Position numbers and translations under genes: made by a program
Part shown: positions 5,252 to 11,104 of the stretch, piece after piece
Layout: each line of letters opens with the position of its first letter
How positions within the stretch are numbered: position 1 is the first letter of the stretch
Virus record (IMG/VR): IMGVR_UViG_3300021343_000009
Location: 1 to 34,641 of that record
Reading direction: 5' to 3' (one strand)
From: a virus
Length of the DNA stretch: 34,641 bases
Notes under the pieces: model-generated
Databases searched by the model: none
Told to the model about the DNA's origin: nothing
What the model saw: the letters and a program-made list of their open reading frames with translations, nothing else

Positions 5252-6112
5252 TCAGTTCTCGGCGGGCACTTCCACGAGAGTCCGCTGTTCACCGGTGCCG
5301 GCGAAGGGGGGCTCCTCGTCCATCAGGCCCGGGGCAGGCAGCGCAAGGGCGTCCGCCGGGGCGGCCACAGCCGGGCGCGGGACGGTGGCCGGTGCCTCGG
5401 GCTGCACATCGATGAGGTTGCCCGCGTTGTCGGCGTCGATGGCTTGGGACCACTCGGGCGAGTCGATGGGCATGGTGCCCCGGCTGGCGACGTAGAGAAC
5501 GGCGGTCTTCTGCGCCATCTCGATGGGCCAGTCCTTCCACGGTCCGCGCCCCTTGCGGAACATCGGCGACTTCTTGGCGCGGGCCAGGATGCGCTTGGTG
5601 GAGACCCAGACCTTGGCGGCCGGGGTGGAGTCGCCCAAGCGGCGGACGACGACAGCCACACCGGCCAGTTCGTCCATCGACATCGGGTCGTCCACGAACC
5701 GGTGGGACACGACCTCGCCGAGCTCGACCCGGAGCTCGTCTTCCTTGTGGACCGGGACGGGCAGGATGGTGAAGCCCTCGCGGTTGGCGAGCTTGGCCAC
5801 ACCGCGGTGGGTGATGCGCCAGTTGATCTTCCCGTCCTGGGGCACCAGGTAGCAGGTGGGGTTGGCGCCGCCCGGGTAGAGCTCGGTCGCGCAGCTCGTG
5901 GCCACGGCGGCCATGAAGGCTTCGGGGTTGTTCTGGGCTGCGTAGTCCCAGTCGCCGGGCTTCGTCGCGCTGGCGCGGGCCGCCATGAAGGCGAGGGCAA
6001 CGCGGCCGGCGGCTTCGCGGGCCTGCTCCTCCGAGTAGGCGTGCTTGAGTTGGCGGTACGCCTCACGCATGACGTGGAGGCGGAGTTCGTTGGCAATGGT
6101 GTCGGTGCTCAT
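5252..6112 (-). CDS. recT: RecT-family single-strand annealing protein
   Basis: A 286-residue recombinase that anneals complementary single strands and pairs with the upstream exonuclease in a Red/RecET-type system. Recognisable RecT features are the N-terminal helical segment, SCATELYPGGANPTCYLVPQ at about 73-92, INWRITHRGVAKLANREGF at about 96-114, VHKEDELRVE, and GPWKDWPIEMAQKTAVLYVA. The proline/alanine-rich last 60 residues look disordered, as in other RecT proteins, and end in an acidic tip. The ATG overlaps the TGA of the exonuclease gene (ATGA), which fits coupled production of both partners. Confidence 0.93.
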   Translation of the reverse strand: MSTDTIANELRLHVMREAYRQLKHAYSEEQAREAAGRVALAFMAARASATKPGDWDYAAQNNPEAFMAAVATSCATELYPGGANPTCYLVPQDGKINWRITHRGVAKLANREGFTILPVPVHKEDELRVELGEVVSHRFVDDPMSMDELAGVAVVVRRLGDSTPAAKVWVSTKRILARAKKSPMFRKGRGPWKDWPIEMAQKTAVLYVASRGTMPIDSPEWSQAIDADNAGNLIDVQPEAPATVPRPAVAAPADALALPAPGLMDEEPPFAGTGEQRTLVEVPAEN

Positions 6113-7152
6113 GCTCGGGGCTCCCGCACGGTCAGGCCGCGCTTGCCGATGGTTGCGGTGATTCGCTTGCCACTCTCGGTGAGGGCGTACACGCTGCGCA
6201 CGTCGCCCATGGCCTTGACCAGGCGGACGCGTGCCTTGTGTTGGAGGGCGGTGGCCGCCTTCGCGGAGTCCCGGTGCTCCAGGTACTCGGCGATGAGGTC
6301 AGCTTCGGAGCCGTCTGCCCGGCGCTTCACGACGCGTGCAGCCGGGTCCGGCCCAAGGTGGTGGAGGTAGCAGGTGCGCGAGTCGTCGACCGGAGGCTCC
6401 TTGCCTTCGACGAGGTGCCGGCCAACCCACTCCGAGAGGCGCGCCTTGAGGGCCCGCAAGTCGTCCGGAGTCGGCACCACCCGGATGCGGGCGCTGCGGA
6501 CGATGGCGTGCGGGCGGACGTTTGGGAATTCGTCGGTGGCGATGCTGCACCGGTCGTCGTCGACGTCGATGGTGACGGCCACGAACAGGTCGCAGAATGG
6601 CAGCCCGCACGCAAGCGCCTGAGACAAGCACTGGCCGAGATAGGCGCGCGGCATCGGCCAGGACGTCAGCTCGTCCAGGCCCTCGATGACCTCGTCGTTG
6701 CGGGGGACCCAGTGGCTGTGGGCCAGCATGACCGTCTTGGACTCGCCGACACCCCAACCCAAGTCAGGGTCGAAGATGAAGGCGTCTGGGGAGACCGCAA
6801 ACCGGCCGCGCTTCACGCGGATGTGGCCCGGCTCGATGACCTTGAGCCCGTAGCGCTGGCGGAACCTCCGCCACAACATGGGCTCCATGGCCAACCCACG
6901 GAGCAGGATGCTGTCGCTCTCGTCGTCCTCTTCCTCGTCGTCGGAGCGCACGGGCTCCAGCAGGTGGGTGGCGTGGCGAGCGGCCCACACTCTCCAGGGG
7001 CCGGCGTACCGGCTCCACCCGAGGATGGCCGCCACATCGGTCGACCCAACGTAGCCAGCGCGGGAGTCGGCATGCCGCGCCGTCAGCCACTTGTCGCGGT
7101 CGGCGTGGTGCTCCACGCGGGACGGGGCGTTGATGAAGTCGAGGGCGGTCAC
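6109..7152 (-). CDS. YqaJ-type (lambda Exo-like) exonuclease
   Basis: A 347-residue PD-(D/E)xK exonuclease that would resect double-stranded ends and hand single strands to RecT. The catalytic set is visible: YVGSTDVAAILG at about 34-45, E90 in GLAMEPMLW, D123 in SPDAFIF, E137 and K139 in GVGESKT, and Q174 in YLGQCLSQAL. An acidic insert, DDEEEDDESD, sits at 71-80. The GTG at 7152 overlaps the TGA of the upstream gene. The C-terminal third (about 230-347) has a helical region and a KRITATIGKRGLTV strand pair beyond the core domain. Confidence 0.9.
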   Translation of the reverse strand: MTALDFINAPSRVEHHADRDKWLTARHADSRAGYVGSTDVAAILGWSRYAGPWRVWAARHATHLLEPVRSDDEEEDDESDSILLRGLAMEPMLWRRFRQRYGLKVIEPGHIRVKRGRFAVSPDAFIFDPDLGWGVGESKTVMLAHSHWVPRNDEVIEGLDELTSWPMPRAYLGQCLSQALACGLPFCDLFVAVTIDVDDDRCSIATDEFPNVRPHAIVRSARIRVVPTPDDLRALKARLSEWVGRHLVEGKEPPVDDSRTCYLHHLGPDPAARVVKRRADGSEADLIAEYLEHRDSAKAATALQHKARVRLVKAMGDVRSVYALTESGKRITATIGKRGLTVREPRA

Positions 7153-7673
7153 TGCCCACCCCCAAGGACATGGAGCGCGACCAGGCGGAGGGCCTCGGCG
7201 TCCACAAGGCGGCTGCCATCGGGGAGACGGGTGTCGTCGAAGGGGTCAAGTTCTGCAAGGCCCTCCCAGACGAGATGGTTCACCCCGAACACGTCGCAGT
7301 CCGGCCCGATGCTGATCCGGTGCTCTCGCGGGCACTCGTCGGTGTACTCGGTGTCATCCACCAGCTCCAGCGGCGATGCGAACGGGGTGACTCCAACCCG
7401 CTTCGCGACGGCCCAAGCCACATGGGCTCGACCGGTGGCGTCCCACAGCGGGACATCAAACCCGCCCAGGCCCAGCCACCTGTTCATGCCGCCCGGCTCG
7501 ATTGGGTACACACGGCCGCGTTCACCATCGACATCCCACGCAACCTCGTTGATCTCGACCTCGCGCAGGCGGATGTCGCGACGCAGTGGGGTGAATCGTC
7601 GCACCACCCCCGGCAACGTCGCCGGAACCGTCAGCGCAGCGAGCTGCTCAGCCGTAGCGTTGGTGTTGGACAT
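7149..7673 (-). CDS. Unknown 174-residue protein upstream of the exonuclease
   Basis: Not recognised. The protein looks soluble, with beta-rich stretches (VNEVAWDVDGERGRVYPIE-like and FDVPLWDATGRAHVAWAVAK), an acidic middle (ELVDDTEYTDECPREHR) and a C-terminal helix (DAEALRLVALHVLGGG). The ATG at 7673 follows GGAGGGCTC. It is coupled by a 4-base overlap to the exonuclease. Genes in this place often encode single-strand-binding proteins or nuclease inhibitors, but no OB-fold or inhibitor motif is apparent. Confidence 0.62.
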   Translation of the reverse strand: MSNTNATAEQLAALTVPATLPGVVRRFTPLRRDIRLREVEINEVAWDVDGERGRVYPIEPGGMNRWLGLGGFDVPLWDATGRAHVAWAVAKRVGVTPFASPLELVDDTEYTDECPREHRISIGPDCDVFGVNHLVWEGLAELDPFDDTRLPDGSRLVDAEALRLVALHVLGGGQ

Positions 7674-7718
7674 GAGCCCTCCATGCGGCCCCTCCGGCCG
7701 CGGTGTGTTGTGTTGGAA

Positions 7719-8402
7719 CTATTTGGCAGCCTGAGCCGCAACCTCGTGCGCATCCGACACATCAGCGAGCACGTCATCCCCGGGCCACATCTCGTGGGCC
7801 AGCGTCTCCATCTCGTCGAAGATGCCGGCGTACCGCTGGCGAACCTCGCGGAGGGTGCTGTGCTCCAGAGCGTCATGCTCCAGGGGCACCCGCGTGGAGA
7901 GGTTCAGGATGGTGCGGCTGGCTTCCTTGAGCCGGCTGGTGGCGAGCTGCAGCAGGCCCTCCAGGCGGGCGTTGTTGTGCTGCGCTGCGGCCAGCGACTC
8001 CTGGGCAGTGCGGCGGAAGAAGCGGGCGCTGGCCACCTCTCCCTGGAGGTCGCCGATCCAGTCGTCGAGGTCGACGAGCTGCTCGTACCGGGTCTCCGCG
8101 CCGACGACGTAGTCGGACTCGAGAAGGGCGCTTTCGAGCAGCTGGTCCAGCACGTCGCGGGGCTCGTCGTCCCGGCGCTTGCTCTGTCGCTTGCGGGCGC
8201 CGCAGATGCAGATCGCGCCTTTCTCGATCTGGACAGGGGGGGGAGCGTCCGCGAGAGCTGCCTCGGTCGCGGCCATACAGGAGATTTCACCGGGGATGTC
8301 CGGAATGGCGGACATTTCCTGTCCATCAAGGACCGTGGAACAGCCTGTATGTTCAGTGCGTGCTCCGGACATCGCGGCGGTGTCGGGGGAAGAGTGGACC
8401 AT
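7719..8402 (-). CDS. First gene of the left operon, coiled-coil protein
   Basis: A 227-residue protein of unknown role. The first 50 residues look disordered. A small CICGARKRQSKRRDDE basic segment with two cysteines (about 65-80) leads into a long helical coiled-coil region to the end (LDDWIGDLQGEVASARFFRR, AQHNNARLEGLLQLATSRLK). The ATG at 8402 is preferred because GGAGG lies five bases upstream and a TATAGT -10 lies just before it. A GTG at 8462 falls inside the operator and promoter. Internal ATGs at codons 11 and 30 are alternatives, and the N-terminal part overlaps a group of TGTCC half-sites. Confidence 0.65.
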   Translation of the reverse strand: MVHSSPDTAAMSGARTEHTGCSTVLDGQEMSAIPDIPGEISCMAATEAALADAPPPVQIEKGAICICGARKRQSKRRDDEPRDVLDQLLESALLESDYVVGAETRYEQLVDLDDWIGDLQGEVASARFFRRTAQESLAAAQHNNARLEGLLQLATSRLKEASRTILNLSTRVPLEHDALEHSTLREVRQRYAGIFDEMETLAHEMWPGDDVLADVSDAHEVAAQAAK

Positions 8403-8414
8403 TGGGGCCTCCGG

Positions 8415-8430
8415 TGTGAGGAACACTATA
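8415..8430 (+). promoter_or_regulatory. Operator-like motif O1
   Basis: TGTGAGGAACACTATA. It matches O2 (8451-8466) at 14 of 16 positions and O3 (8998-9013) at 13 of 16. It overlaps the -10 and start of the leftward promoter. The likely ligands are the two helix-turn-helix proteins encoded next to it. The repeats are seen directly; binding is inferred. Confidence 0.65.
8425..8430 (-). promoter_or_regulatory. Candidate early-left promoter, -10 element
   Basis: Reading leftward, TATAGT lies about 22 bases before the ATG at 8402. The predicted start near 8418 leaves a leader of about 16 bases that contains GGAGG. The -10 is part of operator O1. No convincing -35 is found at 17-18 bases (ACATCT or AACATC), so the promoter may be weak, activated, or rely on other contacts. 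A second TATAGT at 8461-8466 inside O2 is an alternative -10. Confidence 0.5.
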
Positions 8431-8450
8431 CCTGTACCGGGCGCACCAGA

Positions 8451-8466
8451 TGTTAGCAACACTATA
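8451..8466 (+). promoter_or_regulatory. Operator-like motif O2
   Basis: TGTTAGCAACACTATA. Its first 11 bases, TGTT-AGC-AACA, form a perfect inverted repeat, the expected shape for a dimeric helix-turn-helix protein. It starts 36 bp from O1 in the same orientation and would cover the -35 region of the leftward promoter. Confidence 0.65.
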
Positions 8467-8494
8467 TCTTCGATTTCTTCACCGGGAGGATCAT

Positions 8495-8710
8495 GTGATC
8501 CCCAACGACCCTCAGCGCGACGCGCTTCTCGGCCATGTCATGGTGGCGGCCGCCTCCGCCCCTCGATGGAAGCTCCGGGTGGTCGCCCTGGTGCTGTGGG
8601 CGCTCAGAGAGGCCCCGTGGCCGCGGTCAACTCCGCGCGAGCGCCTCAACCATCACCCTGATGGCGTGCCGCTGGGACGAGTTGATGGAACCAGCGTGGT
8701 CCCGAAGTAG
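8495..8710 (+). CDS. Possible small gene antisense to the repressor 3' end
   Basis: A 71-residue reading frame starting at a GTG four bases after GGGAGGA, one of the best ribosome sites in the window. The product is basic and contains WKLRVVALVLWALREAPWP, a mildly hydrophobic helix. It lies where lambda-like phages carry accessory lysogeny genes, between the left operator and the repressor. Its last 84 bases run antisense to the repressor gene. No clear rightward promoter is seen in front of it. It could be a real small gene or a chance frame with a good ribosome site. Confidence 0.42.
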   Translation: MIPNDPQRDALLGHVMVAAASAPRWKLRVVALVLWALREAPWPRSTPRERLNHHPDGVPLGRVDGTSVVPK

Positions 8711-8962
8711 CGAGACCAGCTCCTCGATTTCGGCGTCCCCGGAGGAAGCGGTATCGGCTTCCTCTTCCTCTGGAACCAGCGCCCACCGCGCCTTCAGCGC
8801 ATGAGCCGCCGTCTGGATCTTCTCGATACTCAGCTCGTGTCGCCCGGTCTCAAAGTGAGACACCATCCCAGGCGTGACACCAATGGCGTCCCCCAGGTCT
8901 TTCTGGGTCAACCGCCGACGCTTCCGGAGCGCGGCAACCTGAACTCGTAGCAAGTCACTCAT
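8627..8962 (-). CDS. Helix-turn-helix repressor (CI-like)
   Basis: A 111-residue XRE-family protein. Residues about 1-60 hold the helix-turn-helix (LRKRRRLTQKDLGDAIGVTP, then MVSHFETGRHELSIEKIQTA). An acidic linker (PEEEEADTASSGDAEIEEL) and a C-terminal helix that could dimerise follow. It is shorter than lambda CI and has no LexA-like self-cleavage domain, so induction must differ from RecA-stimulated autocleavage. The ATG at 8962 has no Shine-Dalgarno, and a -10-like TACACT ends six bases before it, suggesting a leaderless message. Its recognition-helix stretch nearly equals that of the Cro-like protein. Confidence 0.88.
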   Translation of the reverse strand: MSDLLRVQVAALRKRRRLTQKDLGDAIGVTPGMVSHFETGRHELSIEKIQTAAHALKARWALVPEEEEADTASSGDAEIEELVSLLRDHAGSINSSQRHAIRVMVEALARS

Positions 8963-8968
8963 CCGCGG

Positions 8969-8974
8969 AGTGTA
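8969..8974 (-). promoter_or_regulatory. Candidate repressor-maintenance promoter, leaderless
   Basis: Leftward TACACT lies exactly six bases before the repressor ATG, so transcription would begin at or next to the A of the ATG. No -35 resembling TTGACA is visible, as expected for a promoter that needs activation. O3 lies 24 bases upstream of this element, a place from which bound repressor could stimulate it. Confidence 0.45.
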
Positions 8975-8986
8975 TGACGACCCGGC

Positions 8987-9015
8987 TTGCGCCCGGATGT
9001 GAGGGTCGCTATAGT
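8987..9015 (+). promoter_or_regulatory. Early-right promoter
   Basis: TTGCGC, a 17-base spacer and TATAGT, facing the Cro-like gene. The predicted start is near 9021-9022, giving a leader of about 15 bases with AGGAG at 9027-9031 before the GTG at 9037. Operator O3 covers the spacer end and most of the -10. The same TTGCGC-17-base layout recurs at the late promoter. Confidence 0.72.
8998..9013 (+). promoter_or_regulatory. Operator-like motif O3
   Basis: TGTGAGGGTCGCTATA. It matches O1 at 13 of 16 positions, with the TGTGAGG and CTATA blocks identical. It overlaps the -10 of the early-right promoter, so a bound protein would block it. Confidence 0.62.
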
Positions 9016-9036
9016 TAGTGCAGCTCAGGAGCTGCC

Positions 9037-9282
9037 GTGTCCCGACTTCGCGAACTCCGCCGCCAGGCGGGCCTCACCCAGACCTCCCTGGCTGCGGAGC
9101 TGGAGGTGACCACGTCAGCCATCTCGCACTTCGAGACTGGCCGGCACGCTCCCTCCACGTCCACCACACGCCGCATCGCCGAGGTTCTTGCACCGCGGCT
9201 GAACCGGACCGTGCGGGACGTCGCGGGGGAGCTGGTGGTGGACTCGGGCAGCTCAGCACAGACTGTGGGGGAGGCAGCGTGA
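9037..9282 (+). CDS. Cro-like helix-turn-helix protein
   Basis: An 81-residue XRE-family protein, first gene of the rightward operon and divergent from the repressor. The helix-turn-helix is at about residues 3-50 (LRELRRQAGLTQTSLAAELE, then AISHFETGRHAPSTSTTRRI). The stretch SHFETGRH is identical in the repressor, which supports shared operators. The GTG at 9037 is five bases after AGGAG. Placement and size are those of a Cro-type protein, which would repress the early promoters during lytic growth. Its C-terminal 25 residues look disordered. Confidence 0.85.
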   Translation: MSRLRELRRQAGLTQTSLAAELEVTTSAISHFETGRHAPSTSTTRRIAEVLAPRLNRTVRDVAGELVVDSGSSAQTVGEAA

Positions 9283-9716
9283 TTGCTGAACAGACCATCA
9301 GTGTTCGTCGGGCCAAGGAACTGGGGGCTGACCCTGCAGAGCTGAATCGGTGCGTGGAGAGGTCCAACCGGCTGAATCTCTACGCGAACGCCGCAGACAT
9401 CCAGCCCGCCATCGTTGGGCAGGACGGTCGTGACTCAGGCTCAGTGGAAGACCGCCTTGACCGCATCGAACACATGCTGTGCGTACTGCTTGCTCAGCTT
9501 GACCCTCGCCCCGAAGCAAACACGCCCCTGCCAGACATCACCCGTGAGCGTCTGCGCACCATCCGGTGCGTCCAAGGCGAGGCCGCGCGCGCGGCGGCTG
9601 CTTACCGTCGTGCTTGGCTGGTGCAGTCCGCCAAGGACCGCGGCCTAGTTGGGGAGGACGAGAAGGGCGTCACAAGCGACCGTCACGGCAACATCACCAT
9701 CCACAGGGCCGGGTGA
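9279..9716 (+). CDS. Unknown 145-residue protein after the Cro-like gene
   Basis: Not recognised. It contains a helical N-terminal part (VRRAKELGADPAELNRCVER), a DRLDRIEHMLCVLLAQLDPR segment that may form a coiled coil, and a basic helix (RVQGEAARAAAAYRRAW-like) near the C-terminus. It is coupled to the Cro-like gene by a GTGA overlap and has GGAGGCAGC as its ribosome site. The frame open back to 9018 overlaps the Cro-like gene. Its 3' end overlaps the opposing gene at 9645-10124 by 72 bases. Confidence 0.6.
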   Translation: MIAEQTISVRRAKELGADPAELNRCVERSNRLNLYANAADIQPAIVGQDGRDSGSVEDRLDRIEHMLCVLLAQLDPRPEANTPLPDITRERLRTIRCVQGEAARAAAAYRRAWLVQSAKDRGLVGEDEKGVTSDRHGNITIHRAG

Positions 9717-10124
9717 GCCCGTGATTGTCGTCTTGATGACGATGTGTGCCGCTGGGTTGGACTGCAGGACCCTCGTGCCGTTGCGCAGCGTGAACCAGTC
9801 GTGCCCAGCTGGTTCGGCAGGGTCCGGTTCTGCGATGGGTGTTGCTGGCCATGCCGAGGGCACGAAAGTGGTCTCCAAGCGACCTGTACCGTTCAACAGG
9901 TTGGCGGCCTCGACAGCCGCGTTCAGGCCAGCAAGCGCGTTGCCAACGATGCGCCTCCCGGTCGCCTCTTCGTCCTGGGCAAACGCAGCGATGAGCATGG
10001 GCTCGAAGGTCGTTCGCTTGCCTCGCAGAATGGCCGTTCCGATGTGGGTCGGACCAGGCTCGCTGCCCGTCAGCCAGACGTCTTCCGTCGGCATGTCGAC
10101 GTACTCGATGAATGGGGTTTGCAT
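9645..10124 (-). CDS. Opposing gene 1 (moron-like), unknown function
   Basis: A 159-residue protein on the strand opposite to the early-right operon. It reads like a folded protein: an N-terminal segment (MQTPFIEYVDMPTEDVWLTG), a helix (RRIVGNALAGLNAAVEAANL) and beta-rich parts (WFTLRNGTRVLQSN, HIVIKTTITG, DVAVTVACDALLVLP). The ATG at 10124 follows AAGGACTCAAC. No family is recognised. Reversed single genes inside phage operons are often expressed from the prophage and alter the host or exclude other phages; this is inference. The plus strand is also open here, but its product is Ser/Ala/Arg/Pro-rich filler. Confidence 0.62.
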   Translation of the reverse strand: MQTPFIEYVDMPTEDVWLTGSEPGPTHIGTAILRGKRTTFEPMLIAAFAQDEEATGRRIVGNALAGLNAAVEAANLLNGTGRLETTFVPSAWPATPIAEPDPAEPAGHDWFTLRNGTRVLQSNPAAHIVIKTTITGSPGPVDGDVAVTVACDALLVLPN

Positions 10125-10133
10125 GTTGAGTCC
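10124..10133 (+). repeat. Direct repeat TGTTGAGTCC, left copy
   Basis: The same 10 bases recur at 10224-10233, exactly 100 bp away. The two copies flank the gap between the reversed gene (start 10124) and the next rightward gene (start 10234), touching both start codons. They could be a regulatory pair or traces of gene insertion. Confidence 0.55.
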
Positions 10134-10223
10134 TTGGCTGGCCGCAAGCATCCGTGCTGCGGGTCAGCGGCTCCGGTCTATCGCCTCACCCCCGGCCGTG
10201 ACGACCCGGTGGGCGCGTCCCTG

Positions 10224-10233
10224 TGTTGAGTCC
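10224..10233 (+). repeat. Direct repeat TGTTGAGTCC, right copy
   Basis: Identical to 10124-10133 and immediately before the ATG at 10234. The 90 bases between the copies hold no gene and no convincing promoter; a leftward GATAGA is the best -10 guess. Confidence 0.55.
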
Positions 10234-10407
10234 ATGCGCGCCACCTCTCAGGGCCTGGGGGTCCTCATTCCCGAGGCCATCGTCGGCGACGTCCTCACCG
10301 GCCTGGTGGTTCCAGAGGCCGACGACTTCGGGTCCAGCGGTGGCTCCCAGCGGCCCCTACGGCCCGCCCCCACCGATTCTTCCAACCTCATCGAGGAGGC
10401 GGCGTGA
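10234..10407 (+). CDS. Small unknown protein
   Basis: A 57-residue protein, not recognised. It has a hydrophobic-alternating stretch (GVLIPEAIVGDVLTGLVVPE) and an acidic, proline-rich end (EEAA). The ATG at 10234 lacks a strong Shine-Dalgarno; only TTGAG precedes it. The frame stays open upstream, antisense to the reversed gene, but no better start is seen. Its stop overlaps the GTG of the next gene in GAGGCGGCGTGA. Confidence 0.48.
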   Translation: MRATSQGLGVLIPEAIVGDVLTGLVVPEADDFGSSGGSQRPLRPAPTDSSNLIEEAA

Positions 10408-10688
10408 CTACTGAACATGAGAACAGCCCCCAGGCGACCGTCGACTGGCTCCGAGAGGAACTGGCACACCTCATCGACAACGGGCACTCCACCGTGTCGG
10501 CTGCGGCGCTCGCGCGGGTGCTAGGCGGTGGTGAGGCCCGGTGCCTCGCGCCGGGGCTCAAGGGGCTGCACCGGTCGCCGGAGGCTCGTCTGAGCGCGTT
10601 GCGCCAGGAGAAGTGGCACGAGAACCGGGAGTGGCCACCGCCGGGGACGGACCTTGCGAGGCGGATGGCGAATCGGGAGGTTGCGTGA
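10404..10688 (+). CDS. Unknown 94-residue protein
   Basis: Not recognised. An N-terminal helix (QATVDWLREELAHLIDNGHS) and an alanine-rich segment (TVSAAALARVLGGGEARC) could form a small helical DNA- or protein-binding unit. A basic tryptophan-containing tail (ALRQEKWHENREWPPPG) follows. It is translationally coupled on both sides through RTGA overlaps. Its place just after the switch suggests an early regulatory or host-directed role, unproven. Confidence 0.55.
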   Translation: MTTEHENSPQATVDWLREELAHLIDNGHSTVSAAALARVLGGGEARCLAPGLKGLHRSPEARLSALRQEKWHENREWPPPGTDLARRMANREVA

Positions 10689-11104
10689 CCATTCACCTTG
10701 TCGCCAATCAGCGGGTCCGGTCCACCCTCAGCCTTCCGGACCTTGAGGATCCCGCGGCCTCGGAGGCCGCAGTCGGCTCCTATGTGCGGGCGCTCAAGGC
10801 TGCGGGGATGAAGCCTCTTGGGCCCGCAGACGTGGTCGCCTGGCTGCAGGAAGAGGCGAGCCTTCTCGCCGACGAGGCGGCCCCTATGCTTGTGCCTCTT
10901 GCAGCCCTCCGATGCGCCCTGAGTGGCGGAACCGTTGAGTGCCTCGGTGGTGGACGGGGAGTTCGCTTTTCCTCAGCGAGGACATTCCACGAGGCGCACC
11001 TCTTCCAGGCGCTGCTGATTCATCACGGCGGCGCCGACGAACTCCCCATCCTCTATCCAGGCATCTTCCGGCACGAGCTGCTGCCTCAGGAACGCCAGCC
11101 ATGA
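10685..11104 (+). CDS. Unknown 139-residue protein
   Basis: Not recognised. It has a beta-type N-terminus (TIHLVANQRVRSTLSLPDLE), a helical middle (GSYVRALKAAGMKPLGPADV, VVAWLQEEASLLADEAAPML) and a C-terminal part with FHEAHLFQALLIHHGG. The GTG at 10685 follows GGAGGTTGC and overlaps the upstream stop. It is followed, five bases on, by the end of the reversed gene at 11110-11634, so the two genes converge. Confidence 0.58.
   Translation: MTIHLVANQRVRSTLSLPDLEDPAASEAAVGSYVRALKAAGMKPLGPADVVAWLQEEASLLADEAAPMLVPLAALRCALSGGTVECLGGGRGVRFSSARTFHEAHLFQALLIHHGGADELPILYPGIFRHELLPQERQP

Follow-up and report, generated by a model that had tools for sequence, protein, structure and literature searches.

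The window, that is, the whole 34,641-nucleotide stretch of IMG/VR virus record IMGVR_UViG_3300021343_000009 (68.5% G+C), probably contains the immunity region of a temperate phage (probability of roughly 0.85), with genes for a CI-like and a Cro-like protein and three repeated sites of which sites 1 and 2 would constitute OL and site 3 would constitute OR. The switch is very likely real, since its repeated sites lie exactly where three related phages carry their own, differently spelled sites, and in essence it is very likely an ordinary switch of a temperate phage, with a specificity of its own. The best reading is that OL and OR are both read by the two repressors, CI-like and Cro-like, and that the window and its relatives would belong to a group of mutually heteroimmune phages. 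The repeats, their placement, the layout common to the four phages, the change of operator, and the match between the CI and Cro recognition helices are established at the level of sequence.

Repeated 16-mers at the putative early promoters

The initial annotation had pointed to 16-mers at 8415, 8451, and 8998, and all three were located and proved non-random in shuffled sequences. With up to three mismatches allowed, these are the only copies of the 16-mer in the 34.6 kb, all on the plus strand, with an expectation of 0.03, and three such copies were obtained in 0 of 100 shuffles. When the test was widened to any 16-mer with two copies in the left intergenic region and one in the right, the mismatch sum of the observed triple, which was 5, was matched in none of 3,000 shuffles (the lowest sum was 7) and in none of 1,000 in a repeat run. 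The left-right pair of 16-mers is weaker by itself (p ~0.02), so that the weight of the evidence rests on the triple. A matrix derived from the three sites gave them scores of 24 to 28, and the next best score in the window was 8.7.

Sites 1 and 2 fall inside the 92-bp gap that separates the rightward open reading frame at 8495 from the start of the left operon, and site 3 occupies the spacer of the rightward promoter PR and the start of its -10 element, just ahead of cro (Table 1). The -35 element of PR together with the beginning of its spacer makes up TTGCGCCCGGAT, of which G001, one of the three relatives, has an identical copy. A strict sigma-70 scan of 8200-9300 returned no promoter, a relaxed scan supported PR and nothing else, and neither returned a leftward promoter with a good -35. 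Because no good -35 was found, a leftward promoter PL is placed solely by position and by the TATAGT that the minus strand of site 1 reads at 8430-8425. The earlier claim that the sites sit at promoters therefore holds for site 3, which is embedded in TTGCGC-17-TATAGT, but for the left pair it becomes a location in a divergent region with a presumed leftward promoter.

Table 1. Features of the putative immunity region and the adjoining leftward operon, in window coordinates
Feature	Position	Strand	Remarks
RecT	5252-6112	-	Pfam PF03837, E 4.8e-15; early leftward operon, 5252..7152
YqaJ/RecE-like exonuclease	6109-7152	-	Pfam PF09588, E 5.6e-9; phrog_434 and phrog_148 cover the exonuclease and RecT
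Leftward gene of no assigned function	7149-7673	-	
First gene of leftward operon	7719..8402	-	Start region homologous to that of the same gene of G001 (RTEHTG)
Site 1 (putative OL)	8415..8430	+	TGTGAGGAACACTATA; aligns with G001 palindrome TATCGGTGTCACCGGTA
Site 2 (putative OL)	8451..8466	+	TGTTAGCAACACTATA, 2 mismatches; aligns with G001 TATCGTCCACACCGATA
Small rightward ORF, 71 aa	8495..8710	+	Divergent from the left operon; GGGAGG before GTG
CI-like repressor, 111 aa	8627..8962	-	Pfam PF01381, E 1.9e-10; PHROGs transcription regulators
PR, rightward promoter	8987..9015	+	TTGCGC, 17 bp, TATAGT; TTGCGCCCGGAT same in G001
Site 3 (putative OR)	8998..9013	+	TGTGAGGGTCGCTATA, 3 mismatches; aligns with G001 TACCGTTGTCAGCTATA
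Cro-like protein, 81 aa, HTH_31/HTH_3	9037..9282	+	Pfam PF13560, E 4.1e-14; first rightward gene

Sites 1 and 2 end in ACTATA, which is TATAGT on the minus strand, and the end of site 3 (TATA) provides the first four bases of the plus-strand TATAGT. The repeats could instead represent a promoter element for rightward transcription (the spacer and the -10, ...CTATA) that serves both the 8495 open reading frame and cro, as all three copies have the same orientation, site 3 falls between a TTGCGC and a TATAGT, and a rightward open reading frame lies downstream of sites 1 and 2. This is quite improbable: at sites 1 and 2 the scan did not return any good promoter for rightward transcription, promoters do not normally have conserved spacer sequences, and at the aligned positions, with identical spacing, G001 has palindromes rather than a ...CTATA repeat.

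As operators, the left-hand sites would form an OL within the divergent region that feeds the leftward RecE/RecT-like recombination operon and the small rightward open reading frame. The first gene of that operon could be assigned to no PHROGs family, and nothing in Pfam matched it above the cut-off. To the right of the switch lie head and packaging genes. Despite the temperate-phage layout, no integrase or transposase family was found among the approximately 20 open reading frames scanned with Pfam; the window record may be a fragment. No Rfam families were found in 7000-11000. Just upstream of cro, GCAGCTCAGGAGCTGC at 9020-9035 can form a 6-bp hairpin over the likely cro ribosome-binding site (-11.5 kcal/mol for 9020-9060), which would be shortened if the transcript started near 9022.

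Putative operators at the same positions in three relatives

Relatives were found through the terminase. None of 50,697 phage records matched the window at the level of DNA, searches with CI, RecE, or RecT returned no close relatives in IMG/VR, and a broad terminase scan returned only terminases about 30% identical. A terminase scan led to IMGVR_UViG_3300021419_000005 (G001), with a terminase 73% identical to that of the window, and the alignment of the window with G001 led to G003, a contig of a Deltaproteobacteria metagenome-assembled genome (MAG), and to G228, from the same bacterial order as G003; the terminases of these two are 52 and 45% identical to that of the window. Another candidate, L004, had been picked up through Cro and was dropped, as its RecE shows no relationship. 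Coordinates for G001 and G003 are those of the reverse complements of L012 and L017, respectively. All three (pro)phage relatives carry a short CI-like gene (106 to 119 aa) divergent from a Cro-like gene, in the layout of the window.

All three also have repeated sites at both of the positions occupied in the window, mostly palindromic and different in sequence in each phage. The G001 sites are 17-bp palindromes that align base for base with the window copies, with spacings of 36 bp (between sites 1 and 2) and 583 bp in both phages. When 18 kb of G001 were searched for TAYCGGTGNCACCGRTA, the best four matches, at 9201, 9237, 9784, and 9799, were divided equally between OL and OR, and in the DNA alignment the first three fall on the three sites of the window. 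G003 likewise has four sites, at 6484 and 6509 on the left and at 7056 and 7071 on the right, and G228 has 19-bp dyad-type sites (AGCAAAGN5CTTTGCT) on the left and right, with a 19-bp left-right match of p ~0.026. In the repeat test, shuffles as good as the observed sequence numbered 0 of 1,000 for G001, 0 of 1,000 for G003, and 118 of 1,000 for G228.

Since different repeats stand at the same positions in the relatives, the sequence of the sites has been replaced from phage to phage and their positions have been kept, the pattern to be expected of heteroimmune relatives. The initial annotation had named absence of the motif from equivalent sites in relatives as a refutation of its reading, and taken to the letter this is the case: the 16-mer itself is absent from them, but different operators occupy the positions where it would be expected. 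These sites, together with the helix residue that is matched in each CI/Cro pair (see below), support its reading of the repeats as operators.

The sites of G001 have clear dyad symmetry and those of G228 and G003 also show it, but it is weak in the window, where at any common centre the best values are 5, 4, and 1 of 8, compared with 7, 5, 5, and 6 of 8 in G001. No convincing dyad centre shared by the three window sites was found, and such weak palindromy is unusual for a homodimeric HTH_3 repressor. This weak symmetry would be compatible with sites that bind some other regulator, either a host factor or another phage protein, the CI/Cro pair acting elsewhere. Such an arrangement is highly improbable, because the operator sequence varies among the phages along with the CI/Cro recognition helix and, with a host factor, the motif would stay the same.

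A second right-hand site occurs in all three relatives, but in the window it is not significant. The candidate at 9014-9029 on the minus strand has 9/16 identity, which was equalled by 1,227 of 5,000 shuffles; as 25% of shuffles do as well, it is not claimed as a site.

Recognition helices of the CI-like and Cro-like proteins

The CI-like protein consists of an HTH_3 domain and a short helical C-terminus. Only HTH families were found in it with Pfam, a peptidase domain being absent, and its C-terminal half was modelled as two low-confidence helices. The Cro-like protein is 44% identical to the Cro of G001 over 68 aa; its AlphaFold model was poor and was left out of the analysis.

In the alignment of the eight CI-like and Cro-like proteins of the four phages, a single column (column 39) has the same residue inside every CI/Cro pair and different residues among phages: H/H in the window, D/D in G001, L/L in G228, and A/A in G003. 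Residues matched in 4 of 4 within-pair comparisons and 0 of 12 cross-pair comparisons, in a pairing test for which four phages set a permutation floor of 1 in 24. Column 39 aligns with Q33 of the 434 repressor, a recognition-helix residue that contacts operator bases, and the equivalent residue of the window CI, H36, lies within helix 3 (residues 31-39) of a moderate-confidence model. At the column equivalent to 434 Q28, three of the four pairs agree.

The match between CI and Cro at helix position 33, differing as it does among phages, suggests that the CI and Cro of the window share a target specificity. Common binding sites had earlier been argued from the sequence SHFETGRH, which is indeed common to both HTH proteins, but only its S and H belong to the base-reading part, and the residues before them, equivalent to 434 positions 28-30, are PGM in CI and TSA in Cro. 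Because E-T-G-R-H makes up the helix end and the following turn, SHFETGRH is informative mainly through S-H.

It is possible, though the less likely reading, that only the CI-like repressor uses the 16-mers as operators and that Cro reads a single site or a different one, as in the telomere phages phiKO2 and PY54. In phiKO2, whose OL is situated between cB and repA, CB binds three OR sites and two OL sites and Cro a single operator, OR3, so that CB and Cro differ in specificity within the same layout (PMC4997575). The difference between PGM and TSA at the first helix residues would be in keeping with such a division, and the matching of position 33 in all four pairs, at a residue that varies among phages, speaks against it. 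The 111-aa protein most likely keeps the prophage silent from OL and OR: bound to both in the lysogen, it would block RNA polymerase at the two early promoters, and Cro would compete for the same or overlapping sites in lytic growth.

Induction and comparison with known switches

Induction must differ from that of lambda, since the repressor has no cleavage domain. According to one report, antirepressors are known in other phages (PMC3121763). For the four phages, whose repressors are all non-cleavable, induction through a LexA-type SOS element of the host close to OL, or through the small open reading frame at OL acting as an antirepressor or as antisense into cI, is conceivable but unlikely. 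That open reading frame runs antisense over the 3' end of cI and has a homologue in G001 (E 6e-5). Open reading frames at the equivalent place in G228 and G003 have no detectable homology to it, and its status as a gene conserved in all four phages was rejected, homology being confined to the window and G001.

The short sequence CACTGAACA (window 8350-8358, minus strand) has a single exact copy in the DNA that was searched for each of the four phages, and this copy is always in the immunity region, the copies of the relatives being in the L012, L023, and L017 immunity regions. In G228, the copy is part of the LexA-box-like CTGAACAACGTTACAG, which resembles the LexA motif reported for Myxococcus and CTGTACTGGTGTTCAG upstream of recA in G246. 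The window copy lies within GCCTGTATGTTCAGTGCGT at 8343-8361, 19 bp that are identical in G001 with diverged flanks. In the first leftward gene they encode RTEHTG, with codons that end in A or T. This element is possibly one of DNA or RNA (nut-like or a regulator site), and no other IMG/VR contig contained its 18-bp core. A host LexA box was rejected for it, as the half-site spacing is wrong in the window and in G001.

Across four uncultivated phages, then, the layout of the switch is constant and the operator changes together with the matching helix residue of both repressors. Two of the four were found in genomes of one bacterial order, including a Deltaproteobacteria MAG; the window phage is of soil type. 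The set amounts to a small natural experiment on change of immunity specificity, from which predictions of superinfection immunity become testable. The mechanism is classical, with nothing categorically new.

The lambda-style OL/OR switch is a known type, and this phage is a well-supported added member with its own specificity. It has divergent repressor and cro genes with an operator overlapping PR, and a second operator cluster at the recombination operon, as do the three relatives; in common with lambda, operators are found at both early promoters, recombination genes are found in the left operon, and operators are about 17 bp long. In contrast to lambda, the window has a 111-aa repressor without the C-terminal autocleavage and cooperativity (S24-type) domain, two left sites and one clear right site rather than three and three, and a rightward open reading frame at OL that overlaps cI in antisense. 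The term lambda-like in the initial annotation is thus apt for the layout but not for the repressor or for the number of right-hand sites. Apart from weak generic HTH matches, no N-type antiterminator or CII family was assigned to any of the open reading frames of 5252-9716 (PHROGs) and 5252-10688 (Pfam), and no rex was recognised.

In 434 and P22, the repressor and Cro have a matching base-contact residue. The window resembles these phages in having an HTH_3-type recognition helix in both proteins with that residue matched, and it differs in its much less symmetric operators, its shorter repressor, and the lack of detectable close homology. Compared with phiKO2, the OL of the window faces a RecE/RecT operon; with the immB regions of the telomere phages N15 and phiKO2 it shares a repressor/cro pair flanked by operators, with two OL sites beyond the repressor gene and the others on the side of cro (PMC4997575).
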